Source: Buttiauxella noackiae ATCC 51607
Lineage (GTDB): Bacteria; Pseudomonadota; Gammaproteobacteria; Enterobacterales; Enterobacteriaceae
Reading direction: 5' to 3'
NCBI RefSeq assembly: GCF_001654865.1
Contig: NZ_LXEO01000062.1
Location: 1 to 38,580 of the forward strand
Length of the DNA stretch: 38,580 nt
Below the pieces are notes generated by a model. That model saw only the letters and a program-made list of their open reading frames with translations. It made no database searches and had not been told where the DNA came from. Of this stretch, positions 15,703-34,226 are shown piece by piece (position 1 is the stretch's first letter; the number at the start of each line of letters is the position of its first letter). A program made the position numbers and the translations under genes.

Positions 15703-17058
15703 TTATTCAAACAGATTGTGGTGAAGTTTTTGCACCACTTTTTCAGCGTCGTCGCCAGGCACTAGGAAGCACAGGTTGTAGCTGGATGCGCCATAGCAAA
15801 TCATGCGGATGTTAAACGGGTCGAGCACGCCAAACACCTCTTTGCCCACACCACAGGCTTTAGAAAGCTTATTACCGATGATGGCAATCAGGGCGAGGTT
15901 TTCTTCCACTTCGACACGACACAGTGAGGAGAGCTCAGTCAGGAGCGATGTGGTCAGCGGGCTATCACTATTGGAAGTTGAACCCGTAGTATCGAGCGTC
16001 AGCGCAATGCTAACTTCTGAAGTGGTAATCAAATCAACAGAAACATTATGTTGCGCCAGAATATTGAACACTTCCGCCAGGAAACCATGGGAGTGCAGCA
16101 TGCTCAGGCTATTGAGTGTCACCAGGGTTTGTTTACGACGTAGTGCCAGAGCACGGAACAGCGGTGGATTTTCTGTTTTGTTACAAACCAGTGTACCGCC
16201 CGCTTTGGGATCTTTGCTGGAGCCGACAAACACTGGGATATCGCTACGCACTGCAGGCATTAATGTTGCCGGATGCAGTACTTTTGCGCCGAATGTTGCC
16301 ATTTCAGCTGCTTCTTCAAAGGCAATTTTGTCGATGCGTTTTGCCGCTGGCACGACACGTGGGTCGGTAGTGTAAATCCCTGGCACGTCAGTCCAGATAT
16401 CAACTCGGCTGGCATGCAGTGCTTCACCCAACAGTGCCGCTGTATAGTCGCTGCCGCCACGTCCAAGCGTGGTAGTGCGGCCTTTCGCTTCACTACCAAT
16501 AAAACCTTGAGTGATGACCAGAGATTGAGCCAGGCGAGGTTGAAGCTGTTGGCTTGCAAGTTCTGCTAATGTGGCGACATCTGGTTCAGCACGGCCAAAG
16601 CGGTCATTGGTGCGCATGATTTTGCGGATATCGAACCATTGGGCATCGACTTTTCGCTCACGCATAATCTCGACAAACAGCAGCGTAGACATCAATTCAC
16701 CATGGCTAACCAACTCATCGGTTAACGCTGAGGAAGTAGCAAGGGATGCCGCTTCAGCTAAAGTGGTGATGTTTTCAAGCAGACGTTCAACTTCTTCGCG
16801 GATGATTTGCGGATTTGCCAGACGCTCAACAATGTCATATTGGATTTTGCGAATCGCATCGAGCTTAACAAAACGCTCTGTTGCTTCAAGGCCGCTTGCC
16901 AACGCAACCAGCAAATTGGTGATACCCGCTGATGCGGAAAGGACAACAACGCGAACGTTTTCGTCAGCCAGCACCACGTCGGCGCTGCGGTTCATCGCGT
17001 CGTAATCAGCAACGCTGGTGCCGCCAAATTTGGCAATAACGGTTTGTGGGTAGGACAT
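15703..17058 (-). CDS. lysC: Lysine-sensitive aspartokinase III (LysC)
   Basis: Phosphorylates L-aspartate, opening the pathway to lysine, diaminopimelate, threonine and methionine; this isozyme is inhibited by lysine. It has 451 residues (E. coli 449). The kinase domain starts KFGGTSVADYDAMNRS and holds TTLGRGGSDYTAALL and the DIWTDVPGIYTTDPR block. Two C-terminal ACT domains follow. Residues tied to lysine inhibition in E. coli (M318, G323, T344, S345, E346) are conserved here, offset by two (M320, G325, T346, S347, E348), so inhibition should be intact. The ATG at 17056-17058 has ACGAGG 7 bp upstream. Expression should be controlled by the lysine riboswitch upstream, which carries an ERIC insertion. 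Confidence 0.98.
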   Translation of the reverse strand: MSYPQTVIAKFGGTSVADYDAMNRSADVVLADENVRVVVLSASAGITNLLVALASGLEATERFVKLDAIRKIQYDIVERLANPQIIREEVERLLENITTLAEAASLATSSALTDELVSHGELMSTLLFVEIMRERKVDAQWFDIRKIMRTNDRFGRAEPDVATLAELASQQLQPRLAQSLVITQGFIGSEAKGRTTTLGRGGSDYTAALLGEALHASRVDIWTDVPGIYTTDPRVVPAAKRIDKIAFEEAAEMATFGAKVLHPATLMPAVRSDIPVFVGSSKDPKAGGTLVCNKTENPPLFRALALRRKQTLVTLNSLSMLHSHGFLAEVFNILAQHNVSVDLITTSEVSIALTLDTTGSTSNSDSPLTTSLLTELSSLCRVEVEENLALIAIIGNKLSKACGVGKEVFGVLDPFNIRMICYGASSYNLCFLVPGDDAEKVVQKLHHNLFE

Positions 17059-17172
17059 TACAGCCTCGTGTCAGGGAGCCATTTTCATGGCAAAAAAATA
17101 AATAAGCCTTGGCACAAGGGAAGAGCGGGATACGGGGCAGACGTAGAATAGAAGTTCTGAACTACGATACAC

Positions 17173-17488
17173 CCAGAAGCGCCCCACCTTGTTTCCCCGA
17201 TTTCTTGACGCTACAGCGGCGTTGTCTGCGCTAACTCACCTGAATCACTTACTTAAGTAAGTTCATCGGGATTCATAAGCTTGTCGCCTTGCTGTAATGC
17301 CAATAAATTCGGGGAATAAATTGGAGCATTCGGTTGTGAAATGCTCCTGGTGACAGCCCAAGGGATTCAGCCCCCGTGGCCGATAATGCACGCTGCCATA
17401 CGCACATTACCTCGGCGCCGCTCCCCCTCCTGTGTCGTCTTCGGATTGGCTCCTCAAACACGATACCTGGGCGGCGCGCCTCTTCTGG
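17173..17488 (-). promoter_or_regulatory. Lysine riboswitch aptamer of lysC, interrupted by an ERIC element
   Basis: On the minus strand the conserved lysine-aptamer core reads CCAGAAGAGGCGCG, then GAGGAGCCAATCCG, GGAGGGGGAGCGGCGCCGAG, TATCGGCC and GGGGCTGAATCCC. Helix P1 is closed by CCAGAAG (17482-17488) and CTTCTGG (17173-17179); helix P5 by CACC (17349-17352) and GGTG (17185-17188). These arms match the E. coli lysC leader as I recall it. A typical aptamer is about 180 nt; this one spans 316 nt because 17193-17316 is an ERIC element within P5. A local hairpin (17323-17330 / 17340-17347) keeps the normal P5 tip. The 114 nt between P1 and the lysC ATG hold the expression platform and ribosome site. 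Confidence 0.88.
17193..17316. repeat. ERIC element inside the lysC riboswitch
   Basis: 124 bp, close to the usual 126-127. The ends are perfect inverted repeats TTCCCCGA (17193-17200) and TCGGGGAA (17309-17316). The ERIC core is recognisable: ctcacctgaatcacttactt, then agtaagttcatcgggattca. It lies between the local P5 hairpin and the P5 3' arm of the aptamer. Other ERIC copies in the window lie between genes. Confidence 0.88.
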
Positions 17489-17746: not shown

Positions 17747-19396
17747 ATGAAAAATATCAACCCAACGCAGACCGCTGCATGGCAGGCTTTACAGGCGCAT
17801 TTTGACGAAATGAAAGACGTCACTATCGCTGAGCTGTTCGCTCAGGATGCCGACCGTTTTGGTAAATTCTCTGCCACTTTCGACGATTTAATGCTGGTGG
17901 ATTACTCCAAAAACCGCATCACCGAAGAAACCCTGGCCAAGCTGCAGGCGTTGGCAAAAGAGACGGATTTGCAGGGTGCAATCAAATCCATGTTCTCTGG
18001 CGAGAAGATTAACCGCACTGAAGACCGTGCTGTGCTGCACGTTGCACTGCGTAACCGCAGCAACACGCCAGTCATCGTTGATGGCAAAGATGTGATGCCA
18101 GAAGTGAACGCGGTGCTTGAGAAGATGAAAACCTTCTCTGAGAGCATCATCAGCGGTAACTGGAAAGGCTACACCGGCAAAGCGATTACTGACATTGTTA
18201 ACATCGGTATCGGCGGTTCAGACCTCGGCCCATTCATGGTGACCGAAGCGCTGCGTCCTTATAAAAACCACCTCAACATGCACTTTGTGTCTAACGTTGA
18301 TGGGACTCACATTGCCGAAGTGCTGAAGAACGTTGATCCGGAAACCACGCTGTTCCTGGTTGCCTCTAAAACCTTCACCACACAAGAAACCATGACCAAC
18401 GCCCACAGCGCGCGCGACTGGTTCCTGGCAACGGCTGGCGACAACAAACACGTCGCGAAACACTTCGCCGCGCTGTCTACCAATGCTAAAGCGGTGGGCG
18501 AGTTTGGTATTGATACCGCGAATATGTTTGAGTTCTGGGATTGGGTCGGCGGCCGTTATTCCCTGTGGTCTGCAATTGGCCTGTCCATCATCCTGTCTGT
18601 GGGTTACGAAAACTTCGTAGAACTGCTGTCTGGCGCACACGCCATGGACCAGCATTTTGCTAACACTCCGGCAGAACAGAACCTGCCAGTACTGCTGGCG
18701 CTGATCGGTATCTGGTACAACAATTTCTTCGGCGCTGAAACCGAAGCCATTCTGCCATACGACCAGTACATGCACCGTTTTGCTGCTTACTTCCAGCAGG
18801 GCAATATGGAATCCAACGGTAAGTATGTTGACCGTAACGGCAATGCTGTGGATTACCAGACTGGCCCAATCATCTGGGGCGAGCCGGGCACTAACGGCCA
18901 GCACGCGTTCTATCAGCTAATTCACCAGGGTACCAAAATGGTTCCTTGTGACTTCATCGCACCTGCGACCAGCCACAACCCGCTTTCTGACCATCATCCA
19001 AAACTGCTGTCTAACTTCTTTGCTCAGACAGAAGCACTGGCATTTGGTAAAGCTCGCGAAGTGGTTGAACAGGAATACGCAGCTCAGGGTCTGGATCCTA
19101 AAACGCTGGATCACGTTGTGCCGTTCAAAGTATTCGAAGGCAACCGCCCAACCAACTCCATCCTGCTGCGTGAAATCACGCCGTTCAGCCTGGGGGCGCT
19201 GATTGCGCTGTATGAGCATAAGATCTTCACTCAGGGTGCAATTCTGAACATCTTCACCTTCGATCAGTGGGGCGTGGAATTAGGTAAGCAACTGGCTAAC
19301 CGTATTCTGCCTGAGCTGGGTGATGCGGCAGAAATCAACAGCCATGACAGTTCTACCAATGGCCTGATTAACCGCTATAAATCCTGGCGCGCTTAA
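17747..19396 (+). CDS. pgi: Glucose-6-phosphate isomerase (Pgi)
   Basis: Interconverts glucose 6-phosphate and fructose 6-phosphate in glycolysis and gluconeogenesis. It has 549 residues, exactly the E. coli length. Catalytic residues fall where expected: Glu355 in QGNMESNGK, His386 in [10 protein letters not shown] and Lys514 in LGKQLANRI. Substrate-phosphate motifs [14 protein letters not shown] and [11 protein letters not shown] are intact. The ATG at 17747 has AAAGGG upstream. It is a single-gene unit ended by a terminator; the divergent neighbour is lysC. Confidence 0.99.
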
Positions 19397-19459: not shown

Positions 19460-19474
19460 ATAGACATGAAATAT

Positions 19475-19502
19475 AAGCCGACGTTATGTCGGCTTCTTTA
19501 TT
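19475..19502 (+). terminator. Rho-independent terminator after pgi
   Basis: An 8-bp stem aagccgac (19475-19482) / gtcggctt (19488-19495), 5-nt loop, followed by ctttatttt. Confidence 0.8.
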
Positions 19503-19829
19503 TTAATAACTATAAGACAAATCTCCTTGTCGCATAATATCCCCGCAATACTCCTCTGAGGTTAATCCTAAAAGTACCTATATCCTGATAATTTAGCTGG
19601 GTAACTTTCGGATTAATTAGATTTAACTCCTTCGAGTAAATATTTCAACCTGTTGTTTTTAATGTAATTATATAAATACAATCTCTAATCATATTATTAT
19701 TTTCCATTTATCTTAAAGCGCCATTCATATTTCCCGTTTCGGTCTGATTTTATTTCTTGTTGTGTATACTCGAAAACGCCTGAAATTCTTTTGGGCAAAT
19801 CTCCATTCATTCAATGAAGGGAAATTGTT
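19503..19829 (+). promoter_or_regulatory. AT-rich upstream region of yjbEFGH
   Basis: 327 bp without a gene and clearly AT-rich compared with its surroundings. A -10-like TATACT lies at 19765-19770, 60 bp before yjbE. TAAGA-caaa-TCTCC (19513-19526) resembles an RcsAB box (TAAGA-N4-TCCTA) with a few mismatches; E. coli yjbEFGH is known to be Rcs-controlled. The box is about 240 bp from the -10, so its role is uncertain. H-NS-like silencing is plausible from base composition only. Confidence 0.35.
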
Positions 19830-34100: not shown

Positions 34101-34226
34101 TATCCCCATCGTCCTTCAGGTTGCAGGGTTTTTGGCTGCTCTCATTCACCCGAATCACTGACTGAGTAAGCTCATCGGGATTCATTCGATTGCCGCCTAC
34201 CTGCATCTCGAAGTCGCTTCGGTATA
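34101..34226. repeat. ERIC element between ubiA and plsB
   Basis: 126 bp, full length, with ends TATCCC (34101-34106) and GGTATA (34221-34226). The core reads tttggctgctctcattcacc, cgaatcactgact, gagtaagctcatcgggattc and ttgccgcctacctgca. It starts 2 bp after the ubiA stop. Confidence 0.88.

Follow-up and report, generated by a model that had tools for sequence, protein, structure and literature searches.

Can a mobile element become a structural part of a riboswitch that goes on working? Riboswitches differ widely in their peripheral helices, and where these helices come from is seldom known. This question is raised by the lysC leader in the window, by which we mean the whole 38,580-nt stretch of Buttiauxella noackiae ATCC 51607 DNA analysed here (genome G000): helix P5 of its lysine riboswitch holds a complete enterobacterial repetitive intergenic consensus (ERIC) element. 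We put at roughly two in three the probability that ERIC became a peripheral helix of this riboswitch, with P5 now a three-way junction, and was kept since, the switch most likely still working. The features of the leader are as follows.

17173..17488 (-): lysine riboswitch aptamer of the lysC leader with its ERIC insert, RNA running 17488 to 17173 (from RF00168 and P1/P5 complementarity)
17482..17488 (-): P1 5' arm, RNA CCAGAAG, pairing with 17173-17179
17349..17352 (-): P5 base, 5' arm, RNA CACC
17323..17347 (-): P5a, the tip hairpin of P5 (from the MFE fold of the P5 domain)
17193..17316 (-): complete ERIC, the long side helix P5b (from the ERIC profile, terminal inverted repeat and fold)
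17185..17188 (-): P5 base, 3' arm, RNA GGUG
17173..17179 (-): P1 3' arm, RNA CUUCUGG
17059..17172 (-): putative expression platform and ribosome-binding region (from the alignment of 12 Buttiauxella leaders)
17107-17127 (-): conserved block of the expression platform, kept across the Buttiauxella leaders
17064-17071 (-): RBS-like ACACGAGG, within 17059..17172
15703..17058 (-): lysC, lysine-sensitive aspartokinase (from the ORF and tblastn relatives)

In the RNA, P1 is followed by P2-P4, CACC, P5a (17347-17323), a 6-nt linker, ERIC, ACAA, GGUG and the P1 3' arm. The leader matches RF00168 at 74.4 bits against a gathering score of 30 (17492-17331). The 3' end of that match, at 17331, is misplaced because the model closes P5 on the tip hairpin, short of ERIC, and so misses the actual 3' strands of P5 and P1 beyond the element. 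We therefore set the aptamer 3' end by P1/P5 complementarity and by alignment with 11 leaders from the same genus. The role of 17059..17172 as expression platform is proposed by analogy with E. coli lysC; this region is conserved across the genus (12 Buttiauxella leaders), and 102 of 110 nt 3' of P1 are the same in the window and in a second Buttiauxella genome, G002. The lysC relatives were drawn from tblastn (best 80 of 413 used), the nearest named ones being Buttiauxella; records in the plasmid collection matched just 7% of the stretch, in two records, the matched part being annotated lysC. Elsewhere in the window, positions 19464-19635 (-), directly after an ORF at 17747-19396, match the Rfam family STnc430 sRNA at 53.6 bits (cut-off 47).

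The identity of the insert is clear. We searched 85 distinct P5 inserts with a profile made from 20 further ERIC copies in the window genome, the P5 copy excluded; it matched this insert with E=1.8e-29 across profile positions 6-129, and none of the bare P5s among the 85. The element is 124 bp long, its termini form a perfect inverted repeat of 8 bp (17316-17309 and 17200-17193), and its RNA folded alone gives z=-5.24 (200 shuffles). The original prediction of an ERIC inside P5 of the lysC riboswitch is thus borne out by the profile and by the element's occurrence beyond this genome, and its coordinates for the P1 and P5 arms, for ERIC and for the 8-bp repeat all agree with the sequence. ERIC is multicopy in the window genome, with 43 ERIC-like matches including the P5 copy (40 of 63 candidates scored); among the matches listed, the one that follows the P5 copy in score has 80% identity over 105 bases, and some shorter pieces reach 84-91%. 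A TA target-site duplication is unreadable in the window, where the ends have changed, and is visible by eye at a mini-ERIC in a Klebsiella leader (L105 compared with L110). An assembly artefact is unlikely because independent assemblies, of another species and of another genus, share ERIC at this site. Two further ERIC-like occurrences deserve mention: a second element in the window at 34114-34205 (-), 80% identical to the P5 copy of genome G236, and four same-direction matches spaced by ~127 bp on contig C8:64365-64834 of the window genome, possibly a tandem ERIC array.

The riboswitch is present in all 12 Buttiauxella genomes by RF00168, and its P5 takes several forms. Full ERIC occurs in two (G000 and G002), a part-deleted and seemingly rearranged ERIC in one (G007), a short hairpin at the same place in eight (G001, G003, G004, G006, G008, G009, G010, G011) and no insert in one (G005). 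The bare G005 carries the P5 3' arm in the same place, after the tip, rather than elsewhere as the refuting case set out for a tolerated insertion would require. Outside the genus, Cedecea sulfonylureivorans (L078, with a P5 identical to that of G236) has full ERIC at the same junction with canonical ends TATACCC..GGGTAGA, as does G114, from the same genus group as G236. A complete ERIC therefore sits at one shared junction in G000, G002, G114 and G236, that is, in two genera. The comparison of leaders across genera that had been proposed thus recovers the same junction in Buttiauxella and in the genus of Cedecea sulfonylureivorans, and the insertion turns out to be common to another genus rather than private to this genome, with the short hairpin at that place in eight sister genomes. 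Remnants of the element survive in some reduced forms: the short form of G006 and the part-deleted form of G007 keep 16 and 17 nt, respectively, of the window's ERIC 3' end, up to the junction, and in G003 and G004 the ERIC sequence is gone apart from the stem. The middle piece of the G007 insert (L037) reads like opposite-strand ERIC, mainly by eye (profile E=0.77), as if a deletion and an inversion had occurred in a joint event. Two records titled Buttiauxella agrestis ATCC 33320 carry different P5 inserts, full ERIC in L073 and a short hairpin in L074; the genomes that match them, G002 and G008, fall in separate places of the lysC tree, and one record may be mislabelled.

Across 392 genomes of the family, including 6 of the 12 Buttiauxella, P5 inserts of 101-161 nt were found in at least 7 and of 40-100 nt in at least 31, both counts being lower bounds because the search patterns need exact flanks. 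Five of the seven long forms are ERIC by profile, among them weakly G270 (L185), a degenerate ERIC in the same P5 strand (E=9e-5). The profile search gave no match for the long forms of G197 and G228, the latter a 29-bp hairpin with ERIC-like ends TATACCC..GGGTATA. A looser pattern returned 138 loci with 85 distinct inserts, ranging from bare to 158 nt (under a stricter pattern, 71 loci could be parsed and 80 could not). Klebsiella sp. BIGb0407 (L105) has its mini-ERIC at a TA beside P5b (E=8e-5), which L110 lacks, and the short P5b of Klebsiella and Kosakonia resembles ERIC at its ends only. In E. coli, none of 5,426 genomes had a place covering 80% of an ERIC-bearing P5 query.

Folded in isolation, the P5 domain is branched in all four full-ERIC forms, with the P5 base, P5a and the ERIC helix as its arms, which supports in modelled form the expectation that P5 becomes a three-way junction. 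Domains with short inserts of the Buttiauxella-Klebsiella-Kosakonia-Cedecea kind are also branched, with a CACC/GGUG base, P5a and P5b; the P5b hairpin sits 0-3 nt before a conserved CAAGG, and L105 has a further hairpin, the mini-ERIC. For covariation we used the 38 of 51 distinct extended forms that share a register, giving 23 distinct arm pairs, and left out 13 with another P5 type or a shifted register, including the degenerate ERIC L185 and its relative L197. Over 7 pairs and 23 arm pairs, 90.7% of cells were paired against 71.5% after shuffling, with a covariation score of 0.584 against 0.228 (0 of 500 shuffles as high in either case) and scores of at most 0.158 in slid registers. Two other measures are weaker: both partners changed in six pairs, a number equalled in 11 of 500 shuffles, and there were 13 further pair types (6 of 500). 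For all of these measures, the arms were taken from MFE folds, and kinship by itself may outdo shuffles of this kind. Pairing fails in 7 of the 23 at the outermost position and holds in every one at the second, as A-U, C-G, G-C or G-U. The aligned arms thus show a predicted P5b stem preserved through compensatory changes. Among the four full ERICs, compensatory double changes occur in 2 of 41 pairs, and 2 of 41 pairs are broken in the window copy.

The rest of the aptamer points to a working switch. The window retains 77 of 78 near-invariant core positions (the same in >=97% of 42 distinct bare-P5 cores), in keeping with the earlier view of an intact core; the sole exception, an A-to-G change in P4, also occurs in G002. 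All 78 are retained in L078 and L184 (G114). The 316-nt aptamer folds with z=-5.86 (100 shuffles). In whole-aptamer ViennaRNA folds, a model that takes in neither tertiary contacts nor lysine, the pairing probability of the P5 base is just 0.07 in the window, 0.11-0.12 in five relatives without full ERIC (G003, G004, G006, G007, G009), ~0.39 in G010, ~0.57 in L078 and 0.76-0.90 in G001, G008, G002 and G005, with G002, a full-ERIC form, at 0.89. We rejected ERIC as the cause of the weak base because its removal in silico lowers pairing in all three cases tried (to 0.01 in the window, 0.62 in G002 and 0.05 in G236) and the five relatives without full ERIC are also weak. Tolerance of the insert, as originally proposed, receives partial support: the value of 0.07 calls for caution, and tolerance of a longer P5 fits what the available text of PMC6614840 describes, a B. 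subtilis lysC aptamer with P5 extended by 15 bp for surface attachment that served a single-molecule study of lysine binding. Because of that construct, and because P4 and P5 stack in the crystal structure (also PMC6614840), an outward lengthening of P5 would be compatible with lysine binding. From sequence conservation, we infer that the switch still binds lysine and regulates lysC.

The switch seems to have been lost repeatedly among relatives. Among 34 lysC regions examined in Enterobacter, Citrobacter, Lelliottia, Atlantibacter, Dryocola and others (L079, L080, L085, L088, L096, L098, L100, L103, L104, L107-L109, L113, L114, L118, L120, L121, L123-L126, L131-L133, L136, L137, L141-L147, L150), 33 had no RF00168 match at the gathering score, L147 being the sole match, and three of the five genomes of group g96 had none. 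In three Citrobacter regions without the riboswitch (L141, L142, L143), inspection by eye shows an ERIC-like element a short way upstream of lysC. Enterobacter sp. Bisph1 (L104) seemingly has just the 3' part of the riboswitch left (by eye; no Rfam match).

When the insertion took place can be approached from the lysC tree (89 rows, midpoint root, reduced from 136 stretches to 103 long enough and then to distinct ones, with some genomes present twice). G000 and G002 fall in separate subclades of a group with support 95/80 that also contains the short forms of G003, G004 and G006 and the part-deleted G007. Cedecea colo (L092), which is bare, groups with G114 and G236 at 83/59, a branch that is not firm, and the branch joining these three to Buttiauxella has support 91/72. 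The tree favours an ancestral full ERIC with at least four later deletions in group 95/80 as the simplest account, because the two full-ERIC Buttiauxella lie in separate subclades and another genus also has full ERIC; extra losses are needed because G005 and Cedecea colo are bare. Read from this tree, a single origin followed by trimming is probable, and the inserts are likely related by common descent.

ERIC would accordingly have landed in the 3' strand of P5 at a time when Buttiauxella and the genus of Cedecea sulfonylureivorans had not yet separated. The RNA of ERIC forms a long hairpin unaided, and P5 would therefore have become a three-way junction of P5 base, P5a and P5b, in which the ERIC helix, folding by itself, acts as a strut at the 3' strand and lengthens P5 outward. 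The lysine pocket and expression platform presumably remained whole. The full element would then have been little altered in some species and trimmed elsewhere to a short stem kept by compensatory changes. Most likely the switch still responds to lysine by lowering lysC, as its E. coli counterpart does, and ERIC forms an integral strut at its periphery. Against this account, the short forms of sister species show the full length to be dispensable.

The P5 site may instead tolerate any stem-loop, with ERIC a functionless passenger persisting by chance, a possibility we take seriously but lean against. Riboswitches are described as tolerating 'variable insertions' that fold as stem-loops (PMC2258182, available in part), and P5 inserts span bare to 158 nt, being short or absent in 9 of 12 Buttiauxella. 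Against this stand the covariation of P5b and the divergence of the element itself. Between the window and G002, ERIC is identical at 112 of 120 positions (93%), the aptamer core at 131 of 140 (94%) and lysC third positions at 249 of 409 (61%); for G236 the values are 107 of 118 (91%, with 2 gap columns), 114 of 140 (81%) and 196 of 409 (48%). P5 ERICs thus remain 91-93% identical where third positions are at 48-61%, whereas control ERICs at locus L167 reach 82% in G004 (third positions 61%) and 70% in G006 (72%), or 70-82% at 61-72% for one locus in two genomes, the G006 value perhaps understated by a partial locus match. At the other control locus, L151, near relatives are 93% (G007) and 92% (G003) alike, with third positions at 85% and 84%. 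The flanks of both loci match in G002 and G236, with ERIC absent, and locus L152 gave mostly ERIC-only matches in other Buttiauxella (86-94% alike, flanks mostly unmatched); pgi figures, from four genomes only, were left out of the comparison. The P5 copy appears constrained because its 91-93% identity exceeds that of the control ERICs at L167, as judged on few controls (two loci only), and these comparisons suggest selection for full-length ERIC.

ERIC could also have brought a new function. It is doubtful that ERIC was domesticated as the P5b of Buttiauxella, Cedecea, Klebsiella, Raoultella and some Kosakonia and that full ERIC adds lysine-dependent control; if true, a mobile element both built a riboswitch helix, whole or eroded to its terminal stem, and extended its function. 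Somewhat less likely, ERIC would introduce a cleavage site for RNase E or RNase III, or slow down folding, and thereby change how lysC mRNA decays or when the switch acts. ERIC does form a long duplex, ERICs in Yersinia can unmask an RNase E site (PMC10969869, PMC2229807), and the E. coli lysC leader, which controls translation, also has RNase E cleavage under its control, with lysine exposing the sites (PMC5584792, PMC5234074). Sister species nevertheless manage without the long duplex, and the Yersinia effect, as given in the accessible text of those two sources, is ribosome-induced, orientation-dependent and found at gene 3' ends, unlike the lysC leader.

Like ERICs might have entered the same hot spot separately in each lineage, recently or by gene conversion, but we consider this quite improbable. 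ERIC-type sequence did reach P5 in other lineages (the mini-ERIC of L105 and the degenerate ERIC of G270/L185), Cedecea colo is bare, and ERICs at places with unmatched flanks can be 93-94% alike. On the other side, junction and orientation are shared, 16-17 nt from the 3' end of that ERIC survive in G006 and G007, and no donor resembling the P5 copies was found among the matches listed elsewhere in seven genomes (G000, with 40 of 59 candidates scored, G002, G236, G114, G312, G379 and G433): the P5 ERICs are 91-98% identical to each other, and with the G236 P5 ERIC as query, other matches listed were at most 86% identical over more than 60 bases, apart from one 54-base piece at 91%. The P5 copy as query finds one match in G236 at E<=1e-10, and the idea that it is almost the sole ERIC there was dropped, other ERIC queries finding at least three more.

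That ERIC disrupts P5 and leaves lysC constitutive is very improbable: P5 touches the floor of the lysine pocket (PMC3764141, seen in part), the window's P5 base is weak in the computed fold and many relatives lost the switch entirely, but the core is kept (77/78 in the window, 78/78 in L078 and L184) and is 94% identical to that of G002 against 61% at third positions, and the P5 base is no stronger once ERIC is removed in silico.

We return to ERIC as a built-in peripheral helix, one riboswitch helix traced to a named mobile element. The presence of the whole ERIC or a short hairpin at one place in relatives suggests that a regulatory RNA has incorporated mobile DNA. Close relatives whose P5 is full, part-deleted, short or empty make up a natural series suited to testing how mobile DNA turns into regulatory RNA and how P5 length affects lysine sensing. 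For annotation, covariance models can place the end of a riboswitch ahead of such an insertion. No report of ERIC inside a riboswitch was found in the openly accessible literature (most subscription papers fell outside this scope), in agreement with the original prediction, to which no such description was known. In its available text, a 2024 review of MITEs calls MITE-made riboswitches merely 'conceivable' (PMC10969869), and PMC2965389 puts forward that BIMEs and IS terminators were exapted as attenuators.

Several known systems offer points of comparison. The E. coli lysC type of lysine riboswitch (RF00168) has the same core, lysC leader and conserved expression platform, but here P5 is a predicted three-way junction that carries the 124-nt helix of ERIC, and the Rfam 3' end is misplaced. 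ERIC itself, a 127-bp MITE, has the same length, palindromic fold, central motif, inverted repeat and multicopy nature; here, by contrast, two genera carry it at one shared position within a riboswitch aptamer, and in the window its ends read TTCCCC..GGGGAA instead of TATACCC..GGGTATA. BOX repeats with possible T-box motifs (PMC10969869, in the part available) likewise link a repeat to a riboswitch-like RNA. The BIME- and IS-derived 'mobile attenuators' of PMC2965389 are also mobile repeats taken into a regulatory RNA leader, but they are terminators or attenuators, and the accessible portion of that paper does not describe a repeat in a ligand-binding aptamer. The 'variable insertions' of riboswitches (PMC2258182) similarly place a stem-loop at a tolerant site outside the core; compared with the account available there, the source of the insertion is here identified as a mobile element.
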